Part shown: positions 17,641 through 39,981 of the stretch, in pieces
Position numbering within the stretch: position 1 is the stretch's first letter
How the letters are laid out: every line of letters starts with the position of its first letter
Source of the DNA: Pleurocapsa sp. PCC 7319
GTDB lineage: Bacteria > Cyanobacteriota > Cyanobacteriia > Cyanobacteriales > Xenococcaceae
DNA: 64,000 nucleotides
Direction: 5' to 3'
Assembly (NCBI RefSeq): GCF_000332195.1
Contig: NZ_KB235922.1
Span: forward strand, 2,949,322 to 3,013,321
Position numbers and translations under genes: made by a program
Notes under the pieces: generated by a model
Told to the model about the DNA's origin: nothing
Database searches by the model: none
The model's input: the letters and a program-made list of their open reading frames with translations, nothing else

Positions 17641-19437
17641 TTAGCATTTAAAATAGCGATTTACAAAGACACTTATATTAAAAAGTCTCATAATTTGATC
17701 GCGATCACGACCAGATATTTCTCCTGATTTGAGCTTGGCGACTATACCCTCTATATCTAGATAATCATTTAAAATAGTACTAGAATTTATTAAAGTATTT
17801 ATAAAAATAGGCAAATGCTTATCGAGCAACATACTAAAAATTGCTCCTGACCGTCGTGGTTTTAATTTAGGAAATAGAAACCACGCATAACGATTATTTT
17901 TTAGGTTATCTATATATTTACTAGTGGGATTAGAATAGATAGGTAGTTTACCTTTATCTGCTTCTTGAAAACTTGCTAGAGTAGAAAATTGCTTTAAAAG
18001 TAGTTTTCTGAAAATTTTTCTATCTAAAATTAATTCTAGGGGCAACTGTAAAACAAAATCGAGATTGTCTTTAGTATAAAAAGGCAACATAGTTGGTAAA
18101 AATGTGCCAATAATTTTAGAAACCGCATTAGCAAGATAGCGTCTTTGACGATAGTAAAAATCCAGACACATCAAACGCTGATAAACAAATTGTTGTGGCA
18201 AGTCAGAAAAAGATGCCACTAAACTCTCGGCAATACCTTCGGTGAGGAACTCTTTAAATAGAGGTGTAGAAAACTCAGTTAGTATATTTGGTGCAACATT
18301 ATTCCCCCAGGTTCTTAGTTCATCAATTACTCTTTCATCTACTTCGCGAGCTAAATGGTTGGGCGATACGCCCCACTGTAGTAAACGTCCTCCTCCCAAA
18401 GGACCTCCTAAAAATCCGTGAATAACGGGTAATTGTTGAGTCTGTAATAGATCTAACCAACCCCGCCAATAAAAAGGAACGTTATTGACACTAAAAGATT
18501 CAGTCCACCAAGCAGGAAATTTTAAATCCTCTTCGGCGATCGCAGATTGTTCTGTCAATATATAAGTAAGATATTTAGTTTGAGTGGCCTCTGCTAATTC
18601 TATTCCCAGTCGGAAGTCATCACTTCCTGGTTCGCCCCAAGTGGCTGCGGTAATTTCAATTTCTAGGTGTTTCAGGTAACCAAGCAAAATTCGCGAATCT
18701 AGACCTCCTGACAAAGAAATAAGGGCATGTTGACGATCTCCTAACCAGGTTTTAGTAGATTGCGCTATTAAACTATCTAAGTTAGTGATTAATTCAGTTT
18801 CTGTAGCTAAAGATTTTGCGTTTCTAGATTGCTCGTAGGTTCTCGCCAAAAATTCTGTTTTGTCCCGCCTAAAAACCGTAGCACTATTAATCGGAAGAGC
18901 TTGAACTCCTTCCAGCAAAGTATCGCAACTAAGGGGATGGGAAAGAGCGAGAGTAGTAGCTAAAACCTGTGGATTGAGTTTTTGCGGTATAAATGGTAAC
19001 AAACGAAATGCTTTAAGATTACTAGAAATAACAACTATTTCCTTGTCTCGCCAATAATAGAGTGACTTAGCACTCAAATAATCGGAAGAAATAAATAAAG
19101 ATTGATCGCGATTATCCCAAATCAAAAGATTATAAATACCATCAAAAACGCGATCAACATGCTGACTAAAGTCTATATTTACCCAGCTAGAATCTATCTT
19201 AAAACCCTGACAGATATTGCCATGTAAAATAAAGTCTCGTTCGCCACAGTGCCAATAATTAGAATTTTTATTTAATTGTTTCTTACGGATACCACTAAAA
19301 CAAATTTCTGGTTTATCTAGAATAATTTCTGTTAAATAATTATCAGAGAAACTGATATTTTTACAAGAACTGTCAACCAAAGCATGTAATGAGTTTTTCT
19401 TACTCCAATCAATAATGGCAAATATATCATTGATCAT
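17641..19437 (-). CDS. asparagine synthase-like protein (AsnB homologue without catalytic Cys)
   Basis: A 598-residue protein; ATG at 19437 is preferred over a TTG four codons earlier. The N-terminal region (about 1-200) is a degenerate class II glutamine amidotransferase domain with no Cys at position 2, so ammonia cannot be released from glutamine. The C-terminal domain has the PP-loop SGGLDS at about 243-248 followed by the ATP-binding WGEPGSDDF region. Enzymes of this shape activate a carboxylate as acyl-AMP and form an amide; in bacteria they occur in polysaccharide loci and as lasso-peptide cyclases. It lies 95 bases downstream of the 805-residue fusion gene on the same strand, so the two are likely an operon. 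Confidence 0.82.
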   Translation of the reverse strand: MINDIFAIIDWSKKNSLHALVDSSCKNISFSDNYLTEIILDKPEICFSGIRKKQLNKNSNYWHCGERDFILHGNICQGFKIDSSWVNIDFSQHVDRVFDGIYNLLIWDNRDQSLFISSDYLSAKSLYYWRDKEIVVISSNLKAFRLLPFIPQKLNPQVLATTLALSHPLSCDTLLEGVQALPINSATVFRRDKTEFLARTYEQSRNAKSLATETELITNLDSLIAQSTKTWLGDRQHALISLSGGLDSRILLGYLKHLEIEITAATWGEPGSDDFRLGIELAEATQTKYLTYILTEQSAIAEEDLKFPAWWTESFSVNNVPFYWRGWLDLLQTQQLPVIHGFLGGPLGGGRLLQWGVSPNHLAREVDERVIDELRTWGNNVAPNILTEFSTPLFKEFLTEGIAESLVASFSDLPQQFVYQRLMCLDFYYRQRRYLANAVSKIIGTFLPTMLPFYTKDNLDFVLQLPLELILDRKIFRKLLLKQFSTLASFQEADKGKLPIYSNPTSKYIDNLKNNRYAWFLFPKLKPRRSGAIFSMLLDKHLPIFINTLINSSTILNDYLDIEGIVAKLKSGEISGRDRDQIMRLFNISVFVNRYFKC

Positions 19438-19531
19438 AATGTTTCTCAATCTAAAATTTGATTTGAATTACGAACGAAACTTTTGTATTTTGAGGAGAAA
19501 AATAATTTTTACCTGATAATAATTAACACAA

Positions 19532-21949
19532 TTAATCGACTTTACGTATTGTTGTGGTTTTAATTAGAGTTTTCAGAGAACTGAAATTTAAATTATAATC
19601 AGATAATAAACCATTAATTCTGTTTTTTAGAGAGCGTATTGGCAAGTAAGTTATGGCGTAAATCAAACGTTTAATATATTGGAGCCAAGTAGGATCGTAA
19701 ATTAAACTTTTTAAGCTCAGACCTACATAACGTTTCCATCTATCTTCATAGTATTGCTTTGATTCAAAATTTGGTTTGTCTCCATGAAAATCATCGGTAA
19801 TACCAACCAATTCATAGCACTGTTCTAAAGAATCTGGTCTATTTTCATATTGATAGAGAAATTCAAAATCGATCACTTTAAACCCAGTATCGCGATCAAC
19901 AATAATATTAGCTGGGTTGAAATCGAGTAGTGAGTAACCTTGTTCGTAAAAGAAATTAATAGTTTCTATAGCTTGTTTGGCTACAGATAAAGGTAATAGC
20001 CTATTTTGATTAATTTGAAATTGCAAAATATCATTATAATAAGGATAGATTAGATAATTTGAACTATAATCTATCAAACTAGAAATTGCAAAAAATCTTT
20101 CTCCGAAAGACTGATAAACTAATAATTCTCTGCGACAAAAACGTTCACAACCAGGTCTAAAAGTCTTTTTAATTGCCAATTTATTTTGATATTCAATAAC
20201 TTCAAGTTTGGCACGTCTACCAAACCTAGTTAATTCTTTTTTAATGGGATACATTGTCAAAAAATCATGGTGTAATGCACCAATTTTATGCTTAATTTCT
20301 ATACAGTTTTCAGGTATTGCTATTTGTAAATAATTCCAAGCTTCTTGTTCATTATCACTGGAGTGAATAATATTACATCTTTGTTCTGCGTAAAGCGAGG
20401 AATTAATTATATCTCTAATCTTATTTTTAATTAATATACGTGCATTGGATAGATGAGGTTGCTTGGCTAATTGTGTATCACTAGGTTTTAAAGGCATTAA
20501 ATCTACTGTTACCAAAACCATTGTAGGATCTCCTCCAGAGTCTGGCCATGGACCTTTACCCCAGTTACCACCTCTAATTTTATATTTAACTTGCTTAACT
20601 TCTTCAGAGGTTAAAACTTTGCTTTCAATTAAATTAAAGCCCTCTCTAACTAAAAGCTCAATAATTTTATGTTCTAATTTCAACTCAAGTGCTTTTCGAC
20701 GCACAAAGAAAACAGCTAATCCCTTGATATTTAAACTATTTGCATCTAAACCGCTGTCTGTATCAAGAATAGATTGATACTTTTCTTGCAGCCAAATATT
20801 ACTACTATCAAGACGAGCTAAAGTATCTTGTGAAGGTCGCCAATTAATACTACTCAAATACTCATGTAAACTTTCCAAGGTAATATCAATCTCAATATTG
20901 AGTGATTGTGCCATTTCCTTTAGAATCTGAGTATATTCATGCTCTGGTGTAGAATCTAGTTTAGAGTTCTTATTATCATTTACAGAGATAGGAATACCTG
21001 AGTTTAGACCTTTATGATAGATCGCGTGATAGGCCAAACTAAAGAAATGAATTTCTCGATTTGGTATCCGAAAATATGACCTAAAAGTAATCGATTCCTG
21101 TAGTATTTTCTCGGCTAATAAAGGAGGATAATATGCCATATTTTTGTAGGCGGTTCCAGGTAAACCAGAAACAGTATATAGGTCACAGGGAATAATACCT
21201 GGTTGTTTTTGGAGTAGCAATTCTATAATTTCAACATCCTCATCAGCAACAAGCATATCGATATCTTCATCAGGCATTATTGCTGGCAAATCTTCAAACC
21301 AACGTAAAATTGTGTATCTAACTTGCTTTTCGGTCAGAATTTTAAAAAAACCTTCTACACCTAAAACCGGGGAAATATAACGTCTGGCATTAGGGGTAAA
21401 TCTTTTTAAGACTTTGATGATTAAAGTAGGTTGTTTGGTTCCCCAATCGTCTTCTAAAACAGAAAATCCAACCACTTGAATCCGCTTTAAAAGGATATTT
21501 TTCCAAAGCCCTGAAAGACCAGAAAATAAGGCAGTAAAATTTATTGGCGTATAGAAAAGATATTGAGTATGTCTATATTCATGAAAAAACCAGAGACGGT
21601 TTAAATGGAGAGTATCTGAAAGAATTAGGATATCCGCATTATTTTCTTTGATACTGAAAGTCCGATCTATAGTTAAAATCTGTTCATTTTGTCGTTGCTT
21701 GGTGGAAATATCCTTGGTCAAAAGTCCCAAATAATTATTTGTCTCAGTATTTAGACAACTATGGGCAAATCTAACTTTTGTTGAGCCTATTTCAATAATT
21801 CTGTTGAATTCTTGCAGAGGTTTATCCAATTTAACACTTAACTTTCCCCCCAAAAGAACAGATACAAATCTAAGTATCAAGCCTAGATCTTGTATATAGA
21901 TCAAATTTAACAGTCTTTTGCTAATAGATTCTATTTTTTGTTTTTCCAT
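19532..21949 (-). CDS. tri-domain protein: nucleotidyltransferase-like, NDPK-like, kinase-like
   Basis: An 805-residue cytosolic protein. Residues about 205-320 resemble the nucleotidyltransferase fold (RYTILRWFEDLP, then DEDIDMLV at 227-234, with later helices as in this superfamily). Residues about 408-550 resemble nucleoside diphosphate kinase: a beta strand FFVRRKALELK, a helix LVREGFNLIESKVL, and NIIHSSDNEQEA, where His529 aligns with the phospho-His of the NxxHGSD motif. Residues about 585-720 carry kinase motifs: LAIKK (Lys), CRRE, LLDFNPANII (catalytic loop at 674-682) and VIDFEF (metal-binding, 692-697). The N-terminal 200 residues are unassigned. Domain calls are by eye; the kinase part is the firmest. 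It is followed by the AsnB homologue. Confidence 0.6.
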   Translation of the reverse strand: MEKQKIESISKRLLNLIYIQDLGLILRFVSVLLGGKLSVKLDKPLQEFNRIIEIGSTKVRFAHSCLNTETNNYLGLLTKDISTKQRQNEQILTIDRTFSIKENNADILILSDTLHLNRLWFFHEYRHTQYLFYTPINFTALFSGLSGLWKNILLKRIQVVGFSVLEDDWGTKQPTLIIKVLKRFTPNARRYISPVLGVEGFFKILTEKQVRYTILRWFEDLPAIMPDEDIDMLVADEDVEIIELLLQKQPGIIPCDLYTVSGLPGTAYKNMAYYPPLLAEKILQESITFRSYFRIPNREIHFFSLAYHAIYHKGLNSGIPISVNDNKNSKLDSTPEHEYTQILKEMAQSLNIEIDITLESLHEYLSSINWRPSQDTLARLDSSNIWLQEKYQSILDTDSGLDANSLNIKGLAVFFVRRKALELKLEHKIIELLVREGFNLIESKVLTSEEVKQVKYKIRGGNWGKGPWPDSGGDPTMVLVTVDLMPLKPSDTQLAKQPHLSNARILIKNKIRDIINSSLYAEQRCNIIHSSDNEQEAWNYLQIAIPENCIEIKHKIGALHHDFLTMYPIKKELTRFGRRAKLEVIEYQNKLAIKKTFRPGCERFCRRELLVYQSFGERFFAISSLIDYSSNYLIYPYYNDILQFQINQNRLLPLSVAKQAIETINFFYEQGYSLLDFNPANIIVDRDTGFKVIDFEFLYQYENRPDSLEQCYELVGITDDFHGDKPNFESKQYYEDRWKRYVGLSLKSLIYDPTWLQYIKRLIYAITYLPIRSLKNRINGLLSDYNLNFSSLKTLIKTTTIRKVD

Positions 21950-23972: not shown

Positions 23973-25112
23973 TCAATCAGTCAAGGCTCTTTGATAGACA
24001 AGTTTAATTTTCTGCGCGATCGCTGGCCAATTGTAATTAGTTTGAACGTAATCTAAGCAGGATTGACTGCTAGGTAAAATGCGATCGCCTGATAGAGTTT
24101 CGATAATTCCTCTGGCAAGTTGCTCTGGATGATATCCTTCAAAAACTAGATCTTCAGAAAAGGGTTTTAAGATTTCGGGAATACCACCGATAGGAGTTCC
24201 TAATACTGGAGTACCAGCAGCTAATGATTCGACTACTATTAAACCGAAACCTTCTAAGGCTACGGTGGGAACAACGGAAAAGTTAGCAGCGCGATAGCAT
24301 AGGGGTAATTGTTCGTCAGGTATGTATCCTAGTAGTTTAACGTTATCTTCAAGTTCTAGTTCGGCGATTTGAGTTTTGAGTGTAGTAGCCAACTCTCCTT
24401 TCCCAGCAATATGGAGCAAAATATCGGGATAAACTGTCCGAACTTTTGCCATAGCTGCTACCAAGTTTTCTAATCCCATGCGTTTGGCTAGCCTACGGAT
24501 ACAAAAAATAATCGGTCGATCTTGATGCCAACCTAATTGACTACGAGCTTCTATTGGAGCGAGATTAATATTAAAGCAATCTATATTTATTCCCCCAGGG
24601 ATAATATTGATTTTTTCTAAGGGGACTTGATATTCTTGATGCAAAATATCGCTGAAGGTTTGAGACAGAACGATGAATTGTTGCGATCGCCTATAAACAC
24701 TTTGTTCAAGCCATTTTTTTACTTTAACTGCTATACGTTTATTTGCCTCTACCCCACTTTCTAATGCCCAAGGTCCATGAAAATGAGTTACCAATGGGCG
24801 ATCGCCTATTAGATCTTGGATAGGAAAGGTATAGAGGGCAAAATGAGAAACTATCAAGGAATAGTCTGATTCTGCTAACAGTTGGCAAACTGATTTTCGT
24901 ATTCCTTGACAGCGTTTTATTAGGGGTGAATCAGGGGGGGCAAAGGCTCGGACTTGTCCTTGAGAACCTAGGCTTACTTTTTTTGAGCCCGCAACCAAGC
25001 CTTTTACTTCTACGTCGACTTTTGGTAAATAATTGACACAGTTGTAGTAGACGCGACCAAGTCCGCTTGGTTGTTCGGGAAACCAGTCTAAGCCTATCTG
25101 GAGAGTTTTCAT
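23973..25112 (-). CDS. glycosyltransferase family 4
   Basis: A 379-residue GT-B glycosyltransferase. The N-terminal acceptor half begins LQIGLDWFPEQPSGLGRVYY; the C-terminal half holds the donor-binding strand IIFCIRRLAKRMGLENLV and the E-x7-E motif in VALEGFGLIVVESLAAGTPV. It should add a sugar from a nucleotide donor during assembly of the polysaccharide repeat unit at the inner membrane. It is the last gene of the minus-strand polysaccharide locus. A short stretch resembling its 3' end recurs at 13770-13830. Confidence 0.9.
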   Translation of the reverse strand: MKTLQIGLDWFPEQPSGLGRVYYNCVNYLPKVDVEVKGLVAGSKKVSLGSQGQVRAFAPPDSPLIKRCQGIRKSVCQLLAESDYSLIVSHFALYTFPIQDLIGDRPLVTHFHGPWALESGVEANKRIAVKVKKWLEQSVYRRSQQFIVLSQTFSDILHQEYQVPLEKINIIPGGINIDCFNINLAPIEARSQLGWHQDRPIIFCIRRLAKRMGLENLVAAMAKVRTVYPDILLHIAGKGELATTLKTQIAELELEDNVKLLGYIPDEQLPLCYRAANFSVVPTVALEGFGLIVVESLAAGTPVLGTPIGGIPEILKPFSEDLVFEGYHPEQLARGIIETLSGDRILPSSQSCLDYVQTNYNWPAIAQKIKLVYQRALTD

Positions 25113-25175
25113 TATCTTGGGCAGTTTATTAAACTTGGATCTTTTTAGCTCTTTTTCTCACAATTTTTAAGAGTT

Positions 25176-26327
25176 TTAGCTTATTGCAATCACTTGGCTA
25201 AGCAATTGATAAATTTGCTGGTTAATTGCTGATGGGTTAAAGCGTTGACTTGCCTCTGTTTTGGCTGTGCTAGCGATCGCAGCAGCGTGGTCTGGTCGGT
25301 CGTGACAATTCATAATAATCTCTGCGAGCTGATGAGCATCTCCAGGAGAGTGCAACCAACCCGTTTTGCTATGCTCGACAATTTCTGCCGCTCCGCCAGC
25401 ATTAGCAGCTACAACCGGACGATTGCATAACATACCTTCGACAATGACTCGTCCAAATGGTTCCGGTGCAATTGAAGTGTGGGCGACCAAATCGCAGGCA
25501 GTCATCAACTGCGGTACATCAGAGCGAAAGCCTAGGAGCTTAACTCGTTCCTCTAGTCCCAAACTGTTTACTTGCTCGTGAAGCTGCTTTACGTATTCCC
25601 GTTCGCCAAACAAGGCATCGCCAATTAAAACCGCAGTTACATCATCAGAACAATATTTGAGAGCCTCAATCAAGACGTGTTGACCTTTCCAAGATGATAA
25701 GCGACTAAAATGTCCCACCAGGAAGCGATCGCTCAATCCCAACTCCTGTCTCAAAATATCTCGCTGGGAATCGTGACCCGAATATAGCTCTGGTTTAAAA
25801 ATATAGTAGACGACTTCTGCAATTTCAGGTCTTCCACCCGCCTCAAGAAAAGCTTTTTTAGTGGCTTGGGAGTCAGCCATCACTAGTGAAGCAAATCGAT
25901 TTGCTGTGGCAATAGCAATGCGAATATTGGTAGGGCTGAAGTGTTCTGTCGATAAAATATCGTGAAGATAATAGACTAGAGGGCGGCGTGATAACCAGCT
26001 AGCAATTGCCCCAATAACTAGGGCTTTTTGTGTGTTAGCAAAAATTACATCAAAGTCACGCGCTTTCTGGACAACACGATTAATGAGAGGAATAATTTGC
26101 CCCAAGCTACCTAAGCTTTGGATAAAATTACTATCTCGGCTAACTGCTATTGGTTGGTCATTTAAAATTTGAACTGGAATTTGCTTCTGTTCGAGTAGAG
26201 TTTTGAAAGGACCATCTTCAAACAGTCCAACCAAACAGTTTTCTATATATGCGTAAGCAACATCTATTAGGGCAAACTCTGCGCCGCCCAACATACCCGT
26301 TTGATCGAGAAAAAGAATTTTCACCAC
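25176..26327 (-). CDS. glycosyltransferase family 4
   Basis: A 383-residue GT-B enzyme starting at GTG 26327 (or GTG 26324): VKILFLDQTGMLGGAEFAL is the typical N-terminal glycine-rich acceptor loop. The donor half contains VGHFSRLSSWKGQHVLIEAL and the E-x7-E motif in PEPFGRVIVEGMLCNRPVV. It is 63 bases upstream of the previous GT4 gene on the same strand and probably co-transcribed. It adds one sugar of the repeat unit; sugar and linkage are unknown. Confidence 0.9.
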   Translation of the reverse strand: MVKILFLDQTGMLGGAEFALIDVAYAYIENCLVGLFEDGPFKTLLEQKQIPVQILNDQPIAVSRDSNFIQSLGSLGQIIPLINRVVQKARDFDVIFANTQKALVIGAIASWLSRRPLVYYLHDILSTEHFSPTNIRIAIATANRFASLVMADSQATKKAFLEAGGRPEIAEVVYYIFKPELYSGHDSQRDILRQELGLSDRFLVGHFSRLSSWKGQHVLIEALKYCSDDVTAVLIGDALFGEREYVKQLHEQVNSLGLEERVKLLGFRSDVPQLMTACDLVAHTSIAPEPFGRVIVEGMLCNRPVVAANAGGAAEIVEHSKTGWLHSPGDAHQLAEIIMNCHDRPDHAAAIASTAKTEASQRFNPSAINQQIYQLLSQVIAIS

Positions 26328-26590
26328 AGCTTAAAGATAGTGCAATTAAAGGAATTTTTAAATTCAAGAATACCTTTCAGTAAATTGAATTGTCCAAAAA
26401 GCCTAAATTACTGATTAAATTATCATGTTTAATAACTCTTTTGAGTAATCAAAAAGTTACCCCAAGGTAGGATTAAAATTGATTAGTAATTAGCGATCGC
26501 CTAATATATTTGGTAGGGGAAATGTATATAAAGGCAACATTTAAATTTTCGAGTTTACGTAACTTTTTAGTTACTTTCAAGTAGGAAATT

Positions 26591-28807
26591 TTAGTTCACT
26601 TTAAGAAATCTCGCTGCATCAGCTATAACCTTGCCATTAGCTTTATCATTAACGATACGAAGATAGGAATGTCCATCAAGTTGATAGGTGCCAATTAAAT
26701 TCCAGCCACGAATGATCGCTTTTCTTTGGTTTAGCTGTTTTATCTCCTTTCCTCCTAAATGATTCACAATTATTTTGGCATTAGTGGCTCTGTCTTTTCC
26801 TGGCTGCCACCATAGGTATACTTCATACTTTCCCCGTTCTTTAATATTGGGCTGCCACTGTGCCCAGGTATTTGAATCAGCATTTGCCACAAGATAGTCT
26901 TTATCGTATTGTTTATAGCTTCTTGGAGCTGTGACCCATCCATCGCTCATAGAAAAACCGCTTTCGCTATTATCCACAAAATCTTGCTCGATTTCACGAT
27001 CCCAATTCCACTTACGTCCTTGCCAAGTGCTATAAGTCATCATTAAGTCTCGCGCCCTGAGGAAATGATACTTGCGCCCCTCGGGATTAGCCAGGAGATT
27101 TTCTTCAAGTGTTTTAGCAATTTTAAAGTAATCGTAGTTTTGCCAATAAGTTGCCTTGCCAATAGACACTGGCATGAATTGTGGTCCTGGATGGGTCTTT
27201 GCCCATTGACGAATATCATCAGCAATTTCTCGAACATTTTCTATCTTTGCATATTTAGAATCTTGAAACATATGCATTCCAATCACTGCTGTATCTGGAT
27301 TAGTTGCATCCAAACGCTGTACTGGTTGCTTGACATTGTAAATTCCTTGAATTACGCCCAACCAATTAACAATATCGGCTCGGTGTCCTTCGGCATCACA
27401 AAAATTGTTAACTACAGGTAAATCAGTATCCTTAGCAAAAGTACGCCAAACATAACCAGCTTGCTCAGAGTTGCTGAGTCTAGTACACATCCATTTATCA
27501 GCCCAAATGATTCCCATATCGTTTTCAGGAGGCAAAACCTGAGCGTACCAATTGTAAAGTGGCGGAGTGAGATGAGCTAAAATCGGCGCAACAGACCAAG
27601 TAATTCCTCTCTGTCCAAAGTCAGGACTTTGCTTGAAAAGACCAAACATTCCTTTAAAGGTATGATCGAGATTATCTCCATCGGCTATCCACCAAGTAAT
27701 AAAAACATCTTTTTCATTAACAGGATATGCTTTGGAATCAGGTAAATTGACTTGGCTGTCTGGATAGGCATCAAGTACGCTGAAATTTGATGATATTGAT
27801 GTCCCAATAACATAATAACTTGTATGACTTAATACTTTAGGTGTTTCAGAGGTTTCTGTTCTTCCAGGATGGGAAGGGACCCAGCCTATAATTCCAGCCC
27901 TACCTTCAATTAACCCGGGCTGTTGTAACATCTTCATAAGAGCCTGATCGTCATTGGCGTCAGCAACATCGATGTTGAAGGCGAAACCATTTGTTGCCAC
28001 TGCGTAATCAATTACTCCGAAGGATAAAAGTGTATCTGATTCATAAGGGCCAGGATTATCCCAAGAATTCACACCAGTGGAATATAAAAGCTGATGTTGG
28101 CGATTTGAAGTAGCAAAATAATTATCGACTAGCCAGTTCAGTACTTGCCAATCGTGTTTGAAATCCAACTCTCGAAGGTCAAGTAGTTCGGTAAAGGAAA
28201 ATCCCCAGCTTTCTATTAGCTCTTTGAGTTCTGGCGAAACCGCGAGGTAGTTTTTTTGAGCGGCAATGGTCACTGCTGCTCCCGAAGTAGCTAGCCGTAC
28301 CTGTCCCTCTAGGTTTGGGTCCCACACTACCCAACCCTTAATTATGTTGGGGTATTTTATTGTGATGTATTCGAGGATTGCATGAAGTCCACCATTAACA
28401 CCTACCTGGCGTTGGAGATCCTTTCTTGGTAAGTCTTTCACCTCAGGTAAGGTCTCAAGCATTACTTTTTGAAAGTCCCAATCATTACTTCCTGTGTAGC
28501 CAGATTGAGAGTTATCGTTGAAGAGCCAAATTTTGTCTGCGCTTTGTCGATTGACCAAACCTTGTATTACCCTTGAGGTTAAAATTGCATCCGCTTGATC
28601 TTTTTCTTCTTGTTTAATGCCTATATCAACCGTAATAATTTTCTCTGGCAAAGGCATTTCATTGCGATCGCCTAAAGAAACAACAACTTCAGATGGAAAA
28701 GTCAACTTTGATTTTAAAGGAGAATAGTTGGCGACAATTATTAATAAAATTGCAGCAGCAAAAAAAAGAAATAAATGTTTTTTTCTCAAGATAAAAATCA
28801 ATAACAT
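26591..28807 (-). CDS. GxGYxYP-like putative glycoside hydrolase with golvesin-type C-terminal domain
   Basis: A 738-residue protein; ATG at 28807 is preferred over TTG at 28822. Residues about 1-25 form one membrane helix or signal anchor (LFLFFAAAILLIIVANY). The main region (about 45-560) resembles the GxGYxYP family of putative glycoside hydrolases, including FITWWIADGDN and a degenerate AGYVW. The last 120 residues (GKYEVYLWWQPGKDRATNAK … ADAARFL) match the golvesin/Xly carbohydrate-binding-like beta-sandwich. It is likely extracytoplasmic and may trim or bind the exported polysaccharide. The activity of the family is not established. Confidence 0.62.
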   Translation of the reverse strand: MLLIFILRKKHLFLFFAAAILLIIVANYSPLKSKLTFPSEVVVSLGDRNEMPLPEKIITVDIGIKQEEKDQADAILTSRVIQGLVNRQSADKIWLFNDNSQSGYTGSNDWDFQKVMLETLPEVKDLPRKDLQRQVGVNGGLHAILEYITIKYPNIIKGWVVWDPNLEGQVRLATSGAAVTIAAQKNYLAVSPELKELIESWGFSFTELLDLRELDFKHDWQVLNWLVDNYFATSNRQHQLLYSTGVNSWDNPGPYESDTLLSFGVIDYAVATNGFAFNIDVADANDDQALMKMLQQPGLIEGRAGIIGWVPSHPGRTETSETPKVLSHTSYYVIGTSISSNFSVLDAYPDSQVNLPDSKAYPVNEKDVFITWWIADGDNLDHTFKGMFGLFKQSPDFGQRGITWSVAPILAHLTPPLYNWYAQVLPPENDMGIIWADKWMCTRLSNSEQAGYVWRTFAKDTDLPVVNNFCDAEGHRADIVNWLGVIQGIYNVKQPVQRLDATNPDTAVIGMHMFQDSKYAKIENVREIADDIRQWAKTHPGPQFMPVSIGKATYWQNYDYFKIAKTLEENLLANPEGRKYHFLRARDLMMTYSTWQGRKWNWDREIEQDFVDNSESGFSMSDGWVTAPRSYKQYDKDYLVANADSNTWAQWQPNIKERGKYEVYLWWQPGKDRATNAKIIVNHLGGKEIKQLNQRKAIIRGWNLIGTYQLDGHSYLRIVNDKANGKVIADAARFLKVN

Positions 28808-28822
28808 TACAAGAATAAACAA

Positions 28823-29545
28823 TCAATCTTGTTTGGCCAATATTTTAAATTTTATGTATAATTCATTTGCTTTTTCTAATAAATAGTTATTTGATTCTAG
28901 TTTAAAATCTTGTTTTTTCTGTTTCTTTAATTTTTTTCTCTCTCCTTGAGGCGGTTTCCATTGATTTGCTTGAGCCATATCAACTACATCAAATTTTGTT
29001 CCAAACCTAATGTTTATTCTTTGGACTACTCGATCAAAATATCCTGTAGTTTGTTCAAAAGTACTTACTATGCAATTAGCTGCATAAGGTTCTAGCTTAG
29101 AATAAAAACTAATATAACTTTCTAATCCTTGCTGAATAGAAATATATGGCCAGCGGCTAGTAAGAGATAGAACGGCTTTTTCAGGTTCTCTTATGACAAG
29201 CAAAATAGGAATATTTTTACGGGCAGCCTCTATGATTTGAGCAGGCGAATGCAAATGATGAGCAATGCGAACATATTTTGTTTGACTCTTTTGAAATACA
29301 AATGCGGCAAAGCTATTGGCTGAACCTTGAAAGCCATCTATGACTAATTCAGTATCACTGCTTATCATACGTTCGCTGGGATTTTGCTTGAAGGATTTAA
29401 ATTTTTTACAATCCCAAAGAATGTAGGGTAAATAAAAAAGTTTTAATTGAGGTTCTCTTGCTACCAAGGAGCGAAATACAAAATTAAATTGTCTAAGATA
29501 AGTCATTAATGAACTATACGGAATTTTATTAATTATTTTTAACAT
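28823..29545 (-). CDS. sulfotransferase-like protein, divergent
   Basis: A 240-residue protein. The PAPS 5'-phosphate loop region is recognisable as IDGFQGSANSFAAFVF near residues 69-84, and the 3'-phosphate motif as LVIREPEKAVLSLTSRWP near 116-134. It lacks the GxxKxGTT form of the other three sulfotransferases here. Its stop codon comes just before the start region of the GxGYxYP gene, so both are co-transcribed. It probably sulfates a sugar of the polysaccharide. Confidence 0.65.
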   Translation of the reverse strand: MLKIINKIPYSSLMTYLRQFNFVFRSLVAREPQLKLFYLPYILWDCKKFKSFKQNPSERMISSDTELVIDGFQGSANSFAAFVFQKSQTKYVRIAHHLHSPAQIIEAARKNIPILLVIREPEKAVLSLTSRWPYISIQQGLESYISFYSKLEPYAANCIVSTFEQTTGYFDRVVQRINIRFGTKFDVVDMAQANQWKPPQGERKKLKKQKKQDFKLESNNYLLEKANELYIKFKILAKQD

Positions 29546-29627
29546 CGATGCTTGAATATATTTATATATTGTTATTAGCTAATTGATTATTTATAGTTGA
29601 TAATTGATCGATTGGAATCGAGGTTTA

Positions 29628-30470
29628 TCAACGCCAAATATCAAGATTTACATCTAGTAGAACTTCTAATTTTTCAATATCTCTTGTGAATTTTTCTTGT
29701 AATCTTAATTTTGTTTTTTCCTGCATAGTTGGTAAGCTCTGCTGAGCGCCTATTTTAAGAATTTTTCGAATTCCCAATGAGTCGAATAGATTTATTATCA
29801 AATCTAAATCATGCTTTGATAATTTACGATTAACTAGACCCGCCAAATAGTTTAATTGGCTATATTTAGGAATATAGCTTTGATTGACTCTTTGTAATCC
29901 AATAGTATTGCTAAATCCTTCAGACGATATTTTTAAAAAATTGGCAATTGTTTTTTTTGTCTCATTTATATGTGTAATAGATTGCTCAAAAACAAGAAAA
30001 CATATCTGCTTTTGATCGTAAAATTCTAAAAATGGTTCTAAATTGTGTGCATAAAAGCTGTGTTTAATAACCCAAGGTCTGTCAATTAGAAAGTCCTCAA
30101 AAGACTTATTATATCCAGCACGAACTGCATGACCATATTGCGAATAAACTCGATTTACTGGATTACGTACCATTAGAATAAGCTTTTGTATTGATTTTAC
30201 AGAAGCTATCCTTTGAGCACACTTTCTAGGTTGCGATAAATATCTAGGCGTAAATTCTCCAATAGCTTTATATTTAGTTGCAATTTCTGAACTAGGAAAA
30301 AATGATTCATACCATCCAAGTCCTTTACTATAATTATCATCGAAGTTAAAGAAATTAATCTCTTTTCTTCTTGTTGGCATATATATACTTGGATGTTGTT
30401 TGAGTAATTCATGTAGCCAAGTTGTGCCGCACTTAGCTGCTCCAATACCAATAAAGTTAGGAAGTGTCAT
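29628..30470 (-). CDS. sulfotransferase
   Basis: A 280-residue PAPS-dependent sulfotransferase. The 5'-phosphosulfate loop is GIGAAKCGTTWLHELLKQ at residues about 7-24, and the 3'-phosphate motif is LILMVRNPVNRVYSQYGHA near 96-114. The length and ordering match bacterial heparan/chondroitin-type sugar sulfotransferases. It lies 17 bases from the polymerase-like gene and shares its operon. It should transfer sulfate from PAPS to a sugar hydroxyl. Confidence 0.88.
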   Translation of the reverse strand: MTLPNFIGIGAAKCGTTWLHELLKQHPSIYMPTRRKEINFFNFDDNYSKGLGWYESFFPSSEIATKYKAIGEFTPRYLSQPRKCAQRIASVKSIQKLILMVRNPVNRVYSQYGHAVRAGYNKSFEDFLIDRPWVIKHSFYAHNLEPFLEFYDQKQICFLVFEQSITHINETKKTIANFLKISSEGFSNTIGLQRVNQSYIPKYSQLNYLAGLVNRKLSKHDLDLIINLFDSLGIRKILKIGAQQSLPTMQEKTKLRLQEKFTRDIEKLEVLLDVNLDIWR

Positions 30471-30487
30471 AAAAAATTCTCCCAGCC

Positions 30488-31957
30488 CTATAATATAAAA
30501 TTTTTTTTCTGCTTAGTATTGTCTTGATATTGATAATATTTGTAAGCTGCCATGGCTATCCCCAAAAACCCCCAAATAGGCATAGCATATTGTTCTGTTG
30601 TCACGTTACTAGTAGTCATTCGCGCCAAAGAACCTAAAACAATAGTTCTGGAAGCAATAGTAAACAGATCTAATTGTCGTCTTTGGAACAGTTTAAACAA
30701 AAGCAGGGCTATTCCACCAATATAGGCAATAAGAGCAAACCAACCAAAAGAAACTAGGATCACCAGATAACCATTGTCATTGGTAGAAAAAAGAGCTTGA
30801 TTATAGTTTCCACCTGTTGGGGCTTGTCCTGGTGCCAATAAACCCCAACCGATAAACTCAGATAAAGCATAATTAATTCCCCTGTCAAAAGTTATTAGTC
30901 TCGAATTTAAGCTACCATCTTTTCCCAGCTCAGAAAATGTTTCTAACCTAGAGCTGATAACTTCAGAGAATGGCTCCATCGTAGCTAATGGAATAGTAAC
31001 AACTACTATTGTTGTAATGGCAAGAATTATACGAAGTTGATGACGATCTTTAAGGGATATAACAAAAAGTAAAAGAGTTATTAACCAACTGTACCAAGCA
31101 GTACGCACTTTCGATAACAGAAAGGCAAGATAGCCAAACCCAGCAGCGGGAAAACGTAACTTCTCTTTACTAATCAACAACAGCAATAAACCAGGCATGA
31201 GGTTGAAGGCAAAAGTCATCGAGTTGCCCATCGTACTCCAAACTCTAATTCCCAAAGGCTCGGGAACTCCCATATATGAAGCATAAGTATCGTCACCAGG
31301 GCTATACAAAAAGAATTTATCCCACTCAGGTGCGACTAAAAATTGGAAAACTCCATAAATTCCCATCACCAAAACCCCCCAGAGAAAAACTCTCTGAAAG
31401 TTTTGACGGTACTTGGGATAATCTCGCCAATTGACAAATAAGTGGAAACCAAAAAGAATAGGACTTAACCAATCAAACAAAATTAGTATTTCGCGCTCAT
31501 AGTCAGTTATAGGTTGTCGAATTAATCCTATAAAAAAGGCATAGAAAACACTGGCAAAACAAAGCATGAAAGGCAAGCCATCGCGCTTATAAGTTCTAGG
31601 CAAGTAGCGTACCAAAGTAGCTAAGGAAATTGAAGTTACTAGTAATGGCGTTAAGTGATAGGGCCAAGGGGTAATATAACCACACCGATAATCGATTAAG
31701 CGCCGCATAAATGTGCCTAAAAACCACATCCACCAAGTAAAACCGACATAGAGAATAGGATAACGACGATAGAAAAATACACCAACGGCGAATGAACCAA
31801 GGGGAAAAATTGGAATAGCAAGACGAGGAGCGACCAGCAGAAAGACGCTTATGACAAATACTAATCCTAGAATTGCCATCCATGCTGGCTTTGGTTCTAG
31901 GTTTATTTGCCAACCTCTTTTATAAGAACTTTTAGAAATTAATTGTTTCCCTTCCAC
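30488..31957 (-). CDS. O-antigen polymerase/ligase-like membrane protein (Wzy/WaaL type)
   Basis: A 489-residue polytopic membrane protein starting at GTG 31957. Around ten to twelve hydrophobic segments are visible, with a larger extracytoplasmic loop in the second half (about residues 325-395, including STNDNGYLVILVSFGW), as in the Wzy_C/O-antigen ligase superfamily. In this locus the expected role is polymerisation of lipid-linked repeat units on the outer face of the inner membrane. Ligase activity cannot be excluded from sequence. Confidence 0.8.
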   Translation of the reverse strand: MEGKQLISKSSYKRGWQINLEPKPAWMAILGLVFVISVFLLVAPRLAIPIFPLGSFAVGVFFYRRYPILYVGFTWWMWFLGTFMRRLIDYRCGYITPWPYHLTPLLVTSISLATLVRYLPRTYKRDGLPFMLCFASVFYAFFIGLIRQPITDYEREILILFDWLSPILFGFHLFVNWRDYPKYRQNFQRVFLWGVLVMGIYGVFQFLVAPEWDKFFLYSPGDDTYASYMGVPEPLGIRVWSTMGNSMTFAFNLMPGLLLLLISKEKLRFPAAGFGYLAFLLSKVRTAWYSWLITLLLFVISLKDRHQLRIILAITTIVVVTIPLATMEPFSEVISSRLETFSELGKDGSLNSRLITFDRGINYALSEFIGWGLLAPGQAPTGGNYNQALFSTNDNGYLVILVSFGWFALIAYIGGIALLLFKLFQRRQLDLFTIASRTIVLGSLARMTTSNVTTEQYAMPIWGFLGIAMAAYKYYQYQDNTKQKKNFIL

Positions 31958-32013
31958 TTAGTTTCTCCAAGATGAAAACATTTAGTTATTACTTGCCTAC
32001 ATTAATTCTTCCC

Positions 32014-32997
32014 CTATCTACGCGGGAGCGTTTCTGGTAAAGACGTCTGAGAAAGCTTTGAGCAACTACTTTCTATACCCTCTCGCCAAGCTAAGAGTCC
32101 TTGCCAACGTCCTCGCATTGATATCAACCATTTTTTTCCTGCTAACTTACCTTCCTTCGGAAAAAATCTTACCAACTGCACTACACCAAAACCTTTTCTG
32201 GTGCCAACTAAAATTGTCCAAACAAGATAAACGACTTTTCTCATAGTTGGTAAATATTCGAGTAAAACAAGGGTCTGGTTATGAACTTCATTAAACCAAG
32301 CAACTTCATTAAATTGACCTCGTCGATCCTCGTCAAAACGTAAACCCTGATAATGGTCTATCTCTACCAAAGGATCGTAAATTAATTTCCAACTACTTTT
32401 CTTGACATTCAAAGCAAAAGCTAAGTCATTATGTACTTCTGCCCCTGAACCCAAGAGTCGCTTATCAAATCGTAAGTTAGCTATAGCAGTTTGCCGGTAA
32501 CTCATATTGGCGCCTTTGAGAATCTCAACTTCACGGGGTTTCCCTATACCTCGATGATGCTCTCCAATAGTTCGTCCAAACCACTGGACTTTACCAACAA
32601 TTTTTCGTTCACCTTCCATCAACTTGTTGCCAATATACAACCAGTCTCGTCCACCAACACCTCCAATCTGACTATCATTCAGAAAATGAGACTCAATACG
32701 AGCTAACCATTCAGGACGAGGTGCTGCATCGTCATCTGTAATTGAAATAATTTCACTTCGAGCTTCATCTAGACCAGCATTTAAAGCTGCTACTTGTCCT
32801 GGAATAGTTACTTTAACGTTACGTAGTGGCAAGGATTCATGATTGAAATTTTTTAGGAAAGTCCAGGTTTCAGCATCAGTATCGCGAACGATTATTAACA
32901 CTTCATCAGCTGGTCGCGTTTGATTTTTCAATGCGTTCAAACAACGTACCAAATCCTGGGGACGACGATAAGTAGGTATAATAACAGTAATATTCAT
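32014..32997 (-). CDS. glycosyltransferase family 2
   Basis: A 327-residue GT-A enzyme. It starts ITVIIPTYRRPQDLVRCLNAL, has the metal-binding ITDDDAAPRPEW motif near residue 90, and GANMSYRQ near 165. A single hydrophobic patch near 255-270 may be membrane-associated. It is 57 bases upstream of the polymerase-like gene on the same strand. It adds a sugar with inverting chemistry during repeat-unit assembly. Confidence 0.9.
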   Translation of the reverse strand: MNITVIIPTYRRPQDLVRCLNALKNQTRPADEVLIIVRDTDAETWTFLKNFNHESLPLRNVKVTIPGQVAALNAGLDEARSEIISITDDDAAPRPEWLARIESHFLNDSQIGGVGGRDWLYIGNKLMEGERKIVGKVQWFGRTIGEHHRGIGKPREVEILKGANMSYRQTAIANLRFDKRLLGSGAEVHNDLAFALNVKKSSWKLIYDPLVEIDHYQGLRFDEDRRGQFNEVAWFNEVHNQTLVLLEYLPTMRKVVYLVWTILVGTRKGFGVVQLVRFFPKEGKLAGKKWLISMRGRWQGLLAWREGIESSCSKLSQTSLPETLPRR

Positions 32998-33259
32998 TTA
33001 AGTTTTATCTTTGTAATTTCATTAAATATTTCATTAAATGTATTTCTATGTTTTGGATCGGCAATAAGAGACACAAAGTTAGACATTAAATTTTTTCCAA
33101 GAAACTTACTATACGTAGAAATAAATAAACGCAAATCATTTAGATGTTTATATTCCACCTGCTTAGATCAACTCCATATTTAGTTTTTAGATCTTGCAAA
33201 TCATTTTGTAGTAAATTTAAAACATGATTGCGTTGTTTTGAAGAAATTTTGATATATTC

Positions 33260-34024
33260 TTAATATTTTTTTTGTGTAAGAAGCTTGCGAAATGGTTGTA
33301 ATTTTATTCTTGTTTCATCTGGAATCTGCCTAACTATCGATTTGACAAATTTTGTCTTTCTTATACTTGAATAACCAGGTAAAGTAACTCTTCTGAATAT
33401 TGGATTATACGGATTATGATTAATATTTAATCCTTGAAATTTATAATCCGGATCTATGTCCAAAAATCGACAAACTTTTCTCACAACATTAAGGGGCTCA
33501 TTTTTTAGATTCTCAAAATTCAATAAAAGAATGCTTTCATGAGGAAATCTTTTATAGTACTCTTCTATTTGCATTGCATATTTTGAAGTATCTATTATTT
33601 CGCTATTTATTCCTTCAGAAAGAGGCTTTGCTGTGTCTTTATATAGATGTGCACGTCCATTAGTGTAATGAGACTCTATCCTATCTATTGGATCTCTAAT
33701 GATGTAGATAAATTTAAAATTTGCATTTGTACATGCTTTGATTTTGGCAATATTTTCAGCAGCATTTAGATGAGATGGACTTGTATGCGTTACTCTTGTG
33801 TAAGATACAGTTGCTTCAAGAGCAATTTTATGCTGATTAGAATTCCAGTCCCAAAGGCTTTGGTAGTAATCAAAACCTCTAGAAAATATATCTTTGTTAG
33901 AAAAGAAAAGTGGTTCTTTATTTTTGCAAGCTGAAATTTGGAGGTGTTGTGCTAGGTATTTGAAGAGGCTAGTTGTACCGCACTTCATTGCACCAATAAT
34001 TAAGGCAAAATTATTTATTTTCAT
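33260..34024 (-). CDS. sulfotransferase
   Basis: A 254-residue sulfotransferase. The PAPS loop is LIIGAMKCGTTSLFKYLAQH at the N-terminus, and the 3'-phosphate motif is FIYIIRDPIDRIESHYTN near residues 104-121. It lies in a markedly AT-rich part of the polysaccharide locus between a GT2 and an FkbM methyltransferase. It should sulfate a sugar of the exported polymer. Confidence 0.88.
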   Translation of the reverse strand: MKINNFALIIGAMKCGTTSLFKYLAQHLQISACKNKEPLFFSNKDIFSRGFDYYQSLWDWNSNQHKIALEATVSYTRVTHTSPSHLNAAENIAKIKACTNANFKFIYIIRDPIDRIESHYTNGRAHLYKDTAKPLSEGINSEIIDTSKYAMQIEEYYKRFPHESILLLNFENLKNEPLNVVRKVCRFLDIDPDYKFQGLNINHNPYNPIFRRVTLPGYSSIRKTKFVKSIVRQIPDETRIKLQPFRKLLTQKKY

Positions 34025-34131
34025 TAAGTTACTTAATTAGCTAAGCTAAGTTATCCGGAACATTATTAGTAACTAGTATTATTTATCTATAACTAGTTTG
34101 ATGGTCAGGGTAAAGTAATTATTAAGTAAGA

Positions 34132-34977
34132 TCAACTTGAGAATGGCTGGTCATATTCTTTATGAATTGCGACAATATTTTGATATGCAAATATTTCACA
34201 AAATAAAGGATTGTACGCTTCTAACTTAACTAGTCCGTCAGGAAGCATTCTATAAAATGAATATTCAGGTAATTGCTCATAAAAATCCTTGAAAAAAACT
34301 CTACTCGTAATATTCATTTTGTTGAACTCAAAATGAATGATATCAATAACTTTTTCTTCAATTGATTTTTTGGCTCCAATAAGAACATTCAATTCATTAC
34401 CTTCTGTATCAATTTTTAAAAGGTTAATTTTTCTGATATTGTTCTTATCAACAAAATGGTCTATTGTAGTTAACTTTATATCCCAATATACCGAGCTACT
34501 GCTATGAAATTTTTCTATCACATTCTTATATAAGGAAGCATGTGTAGAACCATCACAATTTTCTTGATAATCAAATAATTTGGAATCACCTTGTATATTA
34601 CTACATCCGAGATTGACTGCTATATAGTTATATTTTGATGCTGCAGCCTGAAGTTTCTTAAAAGTTATTGGATGTGGTTCAAAAGCATAAATTGTGACCG
34701 ATTTAGAAATACTTTTGACTTTGTTGGAATATTCTCCTACGTTGGCACCAACATCAATTACTAAATATTTATCTGAACTTCCTAAAAGTTTCTGTAAAAA
34801 CAAATTTTCGCCATTTATCTTTCTATTATAATTCATGAAACCAAGACCTCGTAAGCTCAAAAAATATAGTTGCTTATTGAGCTTGAAAAATCTTTTTCTT
34901 GCAAATATATATATATATGATTTATGAAAATGTTCTAGAATAGTTTTTTTGAGTAACGTAGTTTTCTTTAGTACCAT
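34132..34977 (-). CDS. FkbM-family methyltransferase
   Basis: A 281-residue SAM-dependent O-methyltransferase of the FkbM family. Motif I is YLVIDVGANVGEYSNKV near 72-88, followed by IYAFEPHPITFKKL, and the characteristic INLLKIDTEGNELNVLIGAK is near 185-205. The basic N-terminal 50 residues are unassigned. In polysaccharide loci these enzymes methylate sugar hydroxyls, which fits here. Confidence 0.9.
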   Translation of the reverse strand: MVLKKTTLLKKTILEHFHKSYIYIFARKRFFKLNKQLYFLSLRGLGFMNYNRKINGENLFLQKLLGSSDKYLVIDVGANVGEYSNKVKSISKSVTIYAFEPHPITFKKLQAAASKYNYIAVNLGCSNIQGDSKLFDYQENCDGSTHASLYKNVIEKFHSSSSVYWDIKLTTIDHFVDKNNIRKINLLKIDTEGNELNVLIGAKKSIEEKVIDIIHFEFNKMNITSRVFFKDFYEQLPEYSFYRMLPDGLVKLEAYNPLFCEIFAYQNIVAIHKEYDQPFSS

Positions 34978-35300
34978 AATAATTATCTAAAAAAGCTAAA
35001 AAGCAAAATTTCACAATAGGTTGACAAAAAAGTTTGAGTCGTAAAAAGAAGTGATAATAATGAGTAAATTATTTTTTTCTAACTCATTAACTAAAGTTAT
35101 TAATGTCTTAATAATTGTTCTATTATTTTAATTATAACTCCAATAAAGTTATCACTTACTATTATATAATCTTATTTTAAATCAAACGATATTATGTAGT
35201 GAGAAATACTTTTTTATTTATATTTATCATTAATGTTGATCGTAATTTTATTTATGATAAAGTAAGATTATAAAGTAACATTTTTCTACTAAATAAATAA
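34978..35300. other. very AT-rich divergent spacer
   Basis: About 320 bases between the FkbM gene (minus) and the GT25 gene (plus), with A/T runs and no GC-rich elements. It should hold promoters for both directions; no boxes are called. Confidence 0.4.
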
Positions 35301-36026
35301 ATGAACAATCCATTTGACTATTTTGAAGAAATTTATTGTATCAATCTTGACGAAAAAATCGAGCGTTGGGAAAAAGTCAAACAAGAATTCAAAAAAATAG
35401 GAATAGAGGATAAAGTTAAAAGATTTAGTGCTGTTCGAGATGAAGTTGGGGGACGTGCAATAGCAGGTTCGTCTCATTTAGCAGTAATAAAAATGGCAGC
35501 TCAAAAGAAACTAAAAAATATTCTGATTTTTGAAGATGATTTGATATTCATAAAATGGAATGAAAAATATATGTACAATGCAATTAATAATTTGCCTATA
35601 GATTGGAAAGTATTTAATATTGGATACAGTTTTGTTGGTAAAGATGCCAAGATAAAATTTCATCATATATCTGATAATTTAATAAAAGTTGAGAGAGGTT
35701 CTGATGTAAGAGGCAATCATACATACGCTATAAATCATAATGCTTATCAATATTTCATAGATAACTTTAGTACAACTATTGCTGAATGGAAAAGAGATAA
35801 TGATGCTAAAAGAAGTTATTTAGATTTATGGTTGGCTAATAATTTTGATCGTTATTGTTTAGTTCCTCTTTTCTCTGTACAAGATCAAGATGTAAAATCT
35901 CAAATACAAATAATGAACTTTATAAAAAATTATCTTATAAAAGATCGAAAATTTAGAAGTCTTAAATATTTATTTGAATATTCAGGCAAACATATTTTAT
36001 GGAGAATTAAAAGTAAGTTAAGTTAA
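35301..36026 (+). CDS. glycosyltransferase family 25 (LPS-type)
   Basis: A 241-residue protein starting with the GT25 signature EEIYCINLDEKIERWEKV and carrying the donor/metal motif ILIFEDDLIFI near 73-83, then a second acidic stretch YLDLWLANNF. It is the only plus-strand gene inside the polysaccharide locus and is very AT-rich with many AAA/ATA codons. GT25 enzymes add galactose-like sugars to LPS or related glycans. Its orientation and composition suggest a separate acquisition. Confidence 0.85.
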   Translation: MNNPFDYFEEIYCINLDEKIERWEKVKQEFKKIGIEDKVKRFSAVRDEVGGRAIAGSSHLAVIKMAAQKKLKNILIFEDDLIFIKWNEKYMYNAINNLPIDWKVFNIGYSFVGKDAKIKFHHISDNLIKVERGSDVRGNHTYAINHNAYQYFIDNFSTTIAEWKRDNDAKRSYLDLWLANNFDRYCLVPLFSVQDQDVKSQIQIMNFIKNYLIKDRKFRSLKYLFEYSGKHILWRIKSKLS

Positions 36027-36113
36027 TAATAGTTTGAAAAATTATTATTAATTTGTTGATTGCTTACTATTTGTTCATTGTTAAAGGAAAGAGCACTTTG
36101 CTGAATAATAACT

Positions 36114-37016
36114 TTATTTCAGCCAATGAGAAAGATCTCGTTGGATTAAATCTTGAAGTTTCAAAATATCTTCTCGATATATGTTTATCAAATTATGTTT
36201 TATTTCTGAGGGCATAGTAGGTTTTGAACCTAAATTTTGAGTTGTGACTCTATCATAGATTTTTCGACGTAATTGCTCAGTAAAAAAAGGCTTAGAAATA
36301 GACTTTATGAAATTTTTTTTAGTAAAAAGATCGTATAAAAATCTACTTTTAGGAATGCCAGATGCATTTTTTATAGTTAAATCTGGAACAAAATCATTAT
36401 TTACTTCTAAAAAACTAAAGATATCTCGAACAATATCAATAGTATTTTCTCTAAAATCTTCATAGAGATATATTTGAATTTTCTCTTTATTAAAATTATT
36501 AAAATAACGCTTGAGAGATTCGTAGTAAAAACTTAGTTTTTGATAATAAAAAAGATTCAACCATTTATTATTTATACGCTCTTGTTCCTTTATGAGAGCC
36601 TGTTCAAAAGACAGGGTTTCATAACCTTCTCTAACCAAATGAGAAAATGCAGAAAAAGCTCTCTCTGCTGGATGACGTAGAACTGCTATTAATTTAGCAT
36701 TTGGTATATAATGCTTAATTCTTACAGGTGCTTGGAGACTATGCAGATAAATTGGAGATGCCTCTCCTATGGCTATTTCGTTAGATACTTCCTTAAAAAG
36801 ATCTTTGTATTCCTCTAGATTAGTAATTATTTGACCTTTCCGATTAATTCCTTTTTCTGTAGGTCCTACATAATCAAATTTATTTCCTTCTAAAGCAAAA
36901 AAATGTGGTTCCTTAACCGAACTCATGTAAATCTGGGGATGTTGTTTGAGATAGTAATATAGTGATGAGGTTCCAGCTTTAGGAGCACCTATAATTAAAA
37001 AATTTGGCATTATCAT
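36114..37016 (-). CDS. sulfotransferase
   Basis: A 300-residue sulfotransferase. The PAPS loop is FLIIGAPKAGTSSLYYYLKQ at the start and the 3'-phosphate motif is LIAVLRHPAERAFSAFSHLV near 108-127. The middle section (EPHFFALEG, EASPIYL) matches sugar sulfotransferases. Start at 37016 or 37010. It lies 31 bases downstream of the HepA-like ABC exporter on the same strand. Confidence 0.9.
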   Translation of the reverse strand: MIMPNFLIIGAPKAGTSSLYYYLKQHPQIYMSSVKEPHFFALEGNKFDYVGPTEKGINRKGQIITNLEEYKDLFKEVSNEIAIGEASPIYLHSLQAPVRIKHYIPNAKLIAVLRHPAERAFSAFSHLVREGYETLSFEQALIKEQERINNKWLNLFYYQKLSFYYESLKRYFNNFNKEKIQIYLYEDFRENTIDIVRDIFSFLEVNNDFVPDLTIKNASGIPKSRFLYDLFTKKNFIKSISKPFFTEQLRRKIYDRVTTQNLGSKPTMPSEIKHNLINIYREDILKLQDLIQRDLSHWLK

Positions 37017-37047
37017 AAAAATATTTCCTTAATTAGGCAAAGTTTTT

Positions 37048-38904: not shown

Positions 38905-38990
38905 TGTAAGTAATTGGACAAGATTAAATTCATTGTTTTAGTTATCTGTCTGAAGTTAGATTTAATATTGCCCCCTAAATTTGGAAATCA

Positions 38991-39026: not shown

Positions 39027-39028
39027 CA

Positions 39029-39961: not shown

Positions 39962-39981
39962 AATTTTTTCCAGTCAGAAAA

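Follow-up and report, generated by a model that had tools for sequence, protein, structure and literature searches.

The window, by which is meant the whole stretch of 64,000 nucleotides analysed from Pleurocapsa sp. PCC 7319 (contig NZ_KB235922.1, positions 2,949,322 to 3,013,321), contains a gene whose product, P0001, is laid out as an N-terminal region, a nucleotidyltransferase-like (NTase) domain, a nucleoside diphosphate kinase-like (NDPK-like) domain, a protein-kinase-like domain and a tail (Table 1). An initial annotation had read three such domains in one chain from the motifs DEDIDML, NIIHSSD, DFNPAN and VIDFEF, which begin at residues 227, 526, 676 and 692 respectively, and the three-domain chain was confirmed by sequence profiles, AlphaFold2 models, Foldseek searches and the residues present. 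The domain borders could be placed because some relatives hold only part of the chain: P0005 (genome G035) consists of NTase and NDPK-like domains and P0004 (G029) of NDPK-like and kinase domains. No Pfam or NCBIfam model matched P0001 at its cut-off; three Pfam families were matched at E <= 1, with Pkinase (E 0.002) and NDK (E 0.31) both below cut-off. Since nothing stood above cut-off in these libraries, and no description of the fusion was found by title in the open-licence literature, its earlier designation as an unfamiliar protein stands.

Table 1. Features of the fusion gene and its surroundings (window coordinates)
Feature	Position	Strand	Details
AsnB-like protein (GATase_7 + Asn_synthase)	17641..19449	minus	after the fusion gene; no conserved partner
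Fusion gene (P0001)	19532..21949	minus	intact open reading frame, ATG start, 805 amino acids
Kinase domain, residues 572-772	19634..20236	minus	K595, E608, D676 (19922-19924), N681 (19907-19909), D694 (19868-19870)
NDPK-like domain, residues 404-552	20294..20740	minus	R417, RGGNW, K508, R512, N526, H529 (codon 20363-20365)
NTase domain, residues 190-398	20756..21382	minus	D229 (21263-21265), D231, D256 (21182-21184)
N-terminal region, residues 1-189	21383..21949	minus	alignment A8; no fold assigned
Most of polysaccharide cluster	23973..43358	minus	one glycosyltransferase 25 gene inside on the plus strand

The polysaccharide cluster contains glycosyltransferases, Wzy_C, three sulfotransferases, an FkbM methyltransferase, an ABC exporter, an initiating sugar transferase and a Wzz-type protein. 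It also includes a GxGYxYP-type putative glycoside hydrolase with a Golvesin_C domain (26591-28822, minus strand). The fusion gene is divided from the remainder of the cluster by HTH and DDE_3 transposase frames (22390-23638, plus strand), two separate frames that are possibly a broken element. On the other side of the fusion gene, the AsnB homologue that had been reported there was confirmed. The protein matches asparagine synthase (1.9e-17) better than lasso cyclase (2e-14), both below cut-off, a phmmer search of the PDB found none for it, and its glutaminase half is probably inactive because there is no Cys at position 2. The initial annotation had proposed that fusion and AsnB form a single activation or relay machine acting on one substrate, and had asked whether AsnB always follows. 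The two genes are indeed adjacent both in the window and in G010, with AsnB proteins that are 62% identical, but a genome search found the AsnB loop motif at only one of 15 other loci, that of G010, and no AsnB in the 18 kb examined around the other close orthologue, in G008, so that a joint machine is extremely improbable and AsnB was rejected as part of the system on its distribution. In G010 one reading frame spans the AsnB-like protein and a following part that by eye resembles a family 2 glycosyltransferase (L013:3313-6030).

Among 60 genomes, that of Pleurocapsa included, six matched P0001 at E <= 0.01, and full-length relatives beyond the window's own protein were confined to G008 and G010; in a sample of the phylum eight of 386 matched, of which five were weak (E 6e-4 to 0.007). 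A first contig scan with P0001 gave nothing; a pattern-based profile scan of a collection spanning 84,980 species gave 28 loci from 191 candidate stretches. The alignment used for the residue counts below, A3, has 28 members, 20 of them bearing the NTase domain; as a profile it matched 11 of 367 in the phylum sample at E <= 1e-5. Further members were found in 14 of 201 genomes of the Halomonas family and in 6 of 216 genomes of the phylum to which the Phycisphaerales genome belongs. The complete triad, with its residues intact, occurs in six phyla (Cyanobacteriota, Planctomycetota, Bacillota, Pseudomonadota, Spirochaetota and Bacteroidota). NTase and NDPK-like domains without a kinase are found in P0005, L096, L098 and L100, with Glu at the D256 position in L096 and L098 and a degenerate NTase in L100; NDPK-like and kinase domains without an NTase make up P0004, the Vreelandella group (L033, L034, L036-L043) and L084-L086, L090 and L091; and the kinase stands alone in L097 and L101. 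The kinase is thus separable, being absent from some members and alone in others. Two scans of viral sequences revealed no relative. Of two tblastn searches of plasmids, that with P0002 found none and that with P0010 found a single match, 28% identical to residues 438-599, in the kinase part, and located in a Listeria record of 2.9 Mb. The triad is a real and recurrent enzyme architecture.

Among PDB sequences the profile of the kinase domain matched protein kinases (best E 2.8e-10), and the residue set is complete in P0001, with a beta3 Lys (K595), an alphaC Glu (E608), the catalytic-loop D676 and N681 and a DFG-type D694. The kinase motifs noted initially therefore stand, except that the catalytic Asp, numbered 675 there, is actually D676. 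Asp replaces N681 in 7 of the 28 A3 rows. Against the PF00069 cut-off of 31.7 bits P0001 scores 18, below it, and 12 of the 28 members match the family (best E 5.8e-9).

For the NTase domain an AlphaFold2 model (pLDDT 87.7) had as its 12 best Foldseek matches MenT1, ANT(2''), an NTase-like protein and AAD(9), all weak, with a best E of 6e-3 and no value of 1e-3 or lower, and the nucleotidyltransferase-like domain that had been proposed at DEDIDML is supported to that weak degree by the matches to ANT(2'') and MenT1. A search of PDB sequences with the NTase profile revealed no relative, the one match (E 0.4) being due to chance. NTP_transf_5 (PF14907) did not match P0001 and matched three of the 28 members below cut-off (best E 0.015), and LicD (PF04991) was absent both from the three families matched by P0001 at E <= 1 and from the 25 listed of the 26 Pfam families matched by the 28 members. 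Three acidic residues are intact in 16 of the 20 NTase-bearing rows; the remaining four have lost D231 and D256, with D229 replaced by Glu in three and Gly in one. The sequence ahead of the DxD in the family is LRW[FHY][ED].

The middle region was compared with the chain sequences of the PDB as a profile of 19 family members, and 48 of the 51 matches at E <= 10 were named nucleoside diphosphate kinase, nucleoside diphosphate transferase or NME, the E-values being modest (best 0.0035, 12 below 0.05). The best matches align both at the strand 1-helix 1 end of the domain and at the His motif, which places R417 at the Lys12 position and H529 at the catalytic His. The AlphaFold2 model of the domain has a mean pLDDT of 94.2 and a pTM of 0.89, and among the 50 Foldseek matches listed for it 45 were named NDPK, NM23 or NME2, the other five being chains of axonemal complexes; all had a probability of 1.00 (best E 3.4e-5), with TM-scores by query length of only 0.41-0.49. 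A middle region lacking likeness to NDPKs, an outcome that by the initial annotation would have counted against its reading, was not what fold prediction and the searches returned, and the placing of His529 at the catalytic position is upheld by the PDB profile matches, the model and the Foldseek results. P0001 scores 11.3 bits against PF00334, below the cut-off of 27 bits, and five of the 28 members match that family at E <= 1 (best E 9e-4). Aligned by hhalign with the host's own NDK, the family's NDPK-like profile (A6) gave an E of 0.003 over 33 columns, compared with 0.022 for an unrelated kinase profile. In true NDPKs Lys12 and Glu129 each have a role; in the family the Lys12 position is Arg and the Glu129 position Tyr, each in 25 of the 28 A3 rows. 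In the model an RGGNWGxGPW loop seems to stand in place of the nucleotide-clamp region, a comparison that presumes the anatomy of NDPKs. Because of the low TM-scores and this loop the domain is regarded as a far branch of the NDPKs.

These departures raise the question of whether the NDPK-like domain is catalytic at all, or whether it serves as a binding or scaffold domain for the NTase, leaving the NTase and the kinase as the only enzymes. The substitutions at the Lys12 and Glu129 positions and the apparent replacement of the nucleotide clamp would suit such a role. Set against it is the conservation of H529 in 24 of the 28 A3 rows, and of N526 in 22, with H529, R512 and N526 each present in all 20 NTase-bearing rows; the kept set is what we take to be the phosphate-binding and phosphorylated part of the NDPK site, and a purely structural domain is on balance fairly unlikely.

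The state of the NDPK-like domain follows the presence of the NTase. Among kinase-bearing members, all 22 that have an NTase domain keep the full NDPK-like motif, defined as R417, K508, R512, N526, H529 and [RL]GG[NS]W, and none of the 13 that lack an NTase does. The kinase-less P0005, L096, L098 and L100 lie outside this count; P0005 keeps the whole motif, and the other three keep H529 and RGG[NS]W with a His at position 526, L098 differing also at 508 and 512. On a tree of the kinase domain NTase presence changes four times and the motif three times, giving two to three independent pairs, all losses (sign test p 0.5), which are too few for a statistical test of the association. The seven Vreelandella-group rows in A3 have lost the His in four cases and have Asp for N681 in all seven, and the ten genomes of this group among 20 searched contained no NTase of the fusion's kind at E <= 1e-4. 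In L029 and L030 the fused NTase lacks two of its three acids (the third being Glu) and an intact stand-alone NTase follows directly. In L028 and L031, whose fused NTase is degenerate and whose genomes gave no further NTase match, the NDPK-like motif is nevertheless kept. The pattern, resting on two to three independent losses, suggests that the NTase and NDPK-like domains behave as one module.

The same three folds probably occur also in a second order, NDPK-NTase-kinase, in a cyanobacterial family of small genomes in which 7 of 117 genomes matched. In three members (L049, L051 and L072) an NDPK-like region is followed by an NTase, and L072 has in addition a kinase that scores 41.3 bits (Pfam cut-off 31.7); kinase homology was undetected in the C-terminal part of L051 and L049, so that L072 alone is counted as a full triad in this order. 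The grade of probable reflects an NTase link that is firm (hhalign E 1.5e-16; profile E 1e-12 to 1e-13, with 1.4e-13 for L072) and an NDPK-like link that is weaker. Against family profile A6 the NDPK-like region gave an hhalign E of 2.2e-4 with a probability of 45%, changing to 1.7e-3 and 16% when a third sequence was added, where unrelated comparisons gave 0.15-0.58. In a search of 1,984 frames, repeats among them, the family NDPK profile ranked L049 and L051 (E 0.018-0.029) next below the true members, beside the host's real NDK (E 0.04), and L072 was unmatched at E <= 5; its NDPK-like region is 42% identical to that of L051 and 37% to that of L049. In the reverse search with profile A15 an unrelated antisense frame (E 0.011) ranked above the family proteins (best E 0.58), A15 reached only E 0.1 against the host's NDK, and profile A10 had no match in the PDB. 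At E <= 1e-5 the second order was found in 0 of 118 Bacteroidota (two-row profile A9) and 0 of 249 Pseudomonadota, sets with no known positive in which an empty answer is uninformative, and the one match among 249 Bacillota was the NTase of the already known L019 genome. In L049 (genome G220) the protein runs on into a WavE lipopolysaccharide-synthesis domain (E 1.1e-39).

A polysaccharide context is seen in most of the loci looked at. Among 114 neighbours at 14 loci the most frequent of the 25 Pfam families listed (of 73) include glycosyltransferase 2 (20), GDP_Man_Dehyd/Epimerase (15) and PF01943 polysaccharide biosynthesis (9), and the leading families at these loci are of glycosyltransferase, NDP-sugar, polysaccharide-biosynthesis and transport types. 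L018 was dropped from this count; by eye, its neighbours and those of L095 are not recognisable as polysaccharide genes. The lone kinase of L097 adjoins flippase-like and glycosyltransferase-like frames and that of L101 a glycosyltransferase-like frame (again by eye). No sugar-donor gene common across loci stood out. The gene next to the kinase-less fusion of G035 (L015:9941-10813) has no Pfam match and by eye contains a ParB-like GxHRxxA motif.

It is against this context that two other readings have to be set. The first is a regulator, in which kinase and NTase would act on a protein of the machinery for export or polymerisation and modify it; the PDB matches listed for the kinase profile are protein kinases, and the entry that matches the NTase best, MenT1, has a title calling it a toxin. 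Against it, Pfam finds no sensor or receiver domain in P0001 (although residues 1-189 have no assigned fold), the lone kinase sits among what by eye are apparent glycan genes, and none of the families listed is a single partner shared by most loci; a regulator is thus unlikely. Residues 1-189, overlooked in the initial annotation, are common to some relatives (cyanobacterial, planctomycete and Planococcus); they have no solved relative in the PDB (best E 0.42), and their reading as a methyltransferase is unsupported, there being no such family among those listed and an E of 0.45 against the neighbouring methyltransferase. The second reading is that the NTase domain, in the manner of LicD or CpsC, moves a polyol-phosphate from a CDP-polyol to the glycan. 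According to the part of the source used, CpsC, of the LicD family, is an NTase of a CDP-conjugate-using family, and Cps7C carries an N-terminal TPR domain (PMC11666461). Of the 28 loci scanned (L016-L043) eight, every one from the Halomonas group, have a cytidylyltransferase-like motif, with a Pfam CTP_transf_like match at L026; PF04464 occurs in 3 of the 114 neighbours. The motif is missing from the other 20 loci, the best fold matches are MenT1 and ANT(2''), no entry titled FKRP is among the 50 matches listed, and with LicD absent from the families listed such a transfer is quite improbable.

Glycan tailoring is the likeliest setting of the fusion, its chemistry being something that we infer. 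The reading preferred here, tentatively and with somewhat less than an even chance, is a cytoplasmic tailoring enzyme of surface-polysaccharide assembly. The kinase domain would phosphorylate a hydroxyl group on a sugar of a glycan that is still growing or linked to a lipid, the NTase-fold domain would attach a nucleotidyl group (or a nucleotide-donated phosphodiester) to the glycan or to the phosphate made by the kinase, and the NDPK-like domain, via phospho-His529, would handle phosphate for the NTase, most simply by converting NDP to the NTP that the NTase uses. Arguing for this are the three folds, their complete candidate residues, recurrence in six phyla, the polysaccharide context and the link between NTase and NDPK-like domains. 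Arguing against it are the departures from true NDPKs at Lys12, at Glu129 and in TM-score, the motif kept beside a degenerate NTase in L028 and L031, the surroundings of L018 and L095, the lack of a common sugar-donor gene, the few losses behind the domain association and the weak NDPK assignment in the second order. A bolder and rather improbable proposal is that of a new glycan-capping enzyme class, its folds apparently in two orders: a sugar phosphate made by the kinase would be extended or charged via phospho-His by the NDPK-like domain and joined to a nucleotide by the NTase, yielding a nucleotide-capped polysaccharide. To our knowledge many of the phosphate-linked groups that decorate bacterial sugar coats lack an assigned enzyme. 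With a recurrent triad that no Pfam or NCBIfam model matches at cut-off, candidate residues that can be named, domain losses found in nature and a kinase that can stand apart, one step of such decoration can be put directly to the test. If true, the coupling of a phospho-His fold to an NTase would be an unusual way of powering a transferase.

Known systems resemble the fusion in parts. True NDPKs (PF00334) share with the middle domain the fold, the His at the catalytic position, the Asn before it and the Arg equivalents, but the domain is below cut-off, has Arg at Lys12, Tyr at Glu129 and the RGGNW loop, and is fused. NTP_transf_5 (PF14907) and the ANT(2'')-type NTases have the DxD, the third acid and the small NTase fold in common with the NTase domain, whereas the best member reaches only E 0.015, P0001 is unmatched and LRW[FHY][ED] precedes the family DxD. 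LicD and CpsC are likewise members of the NTase superfamily in capsule clusters, with a TPR domain ahead of the NTase in Cps7C, but LicD is unmatched among the families listed here and the portion of the source used names no kinase or NDPK-like domain for them (PMC11666461). In the lasso peptide pseudomycoidin PsmN adds a hexose to a phosphate made by PsmK, so that the kinase acts first and a protein of nucleotidyltransferase type second, a precedent for both working on one product; there the substrate is a peptide, the kinase is of the HPr type, the proteins are separate and the sections of the sources used mention no NDPK-like domain (PMC9266682, PMC8498205). No lasso precursor or PqqD gene was noticed at the fusion locus in a non-exhaustive look. 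With WbdD of E. coli O9a, which phosphorylates the end of the glycan and modifies that phosphate, the proposed enzyme shares the character of a multidomain glycan kinase belonging to a polysaccharide pathway; the second activity of WbdD is methylation, and no NTase or NDPK-like domain is named in the part of the source used (PMC3482155).
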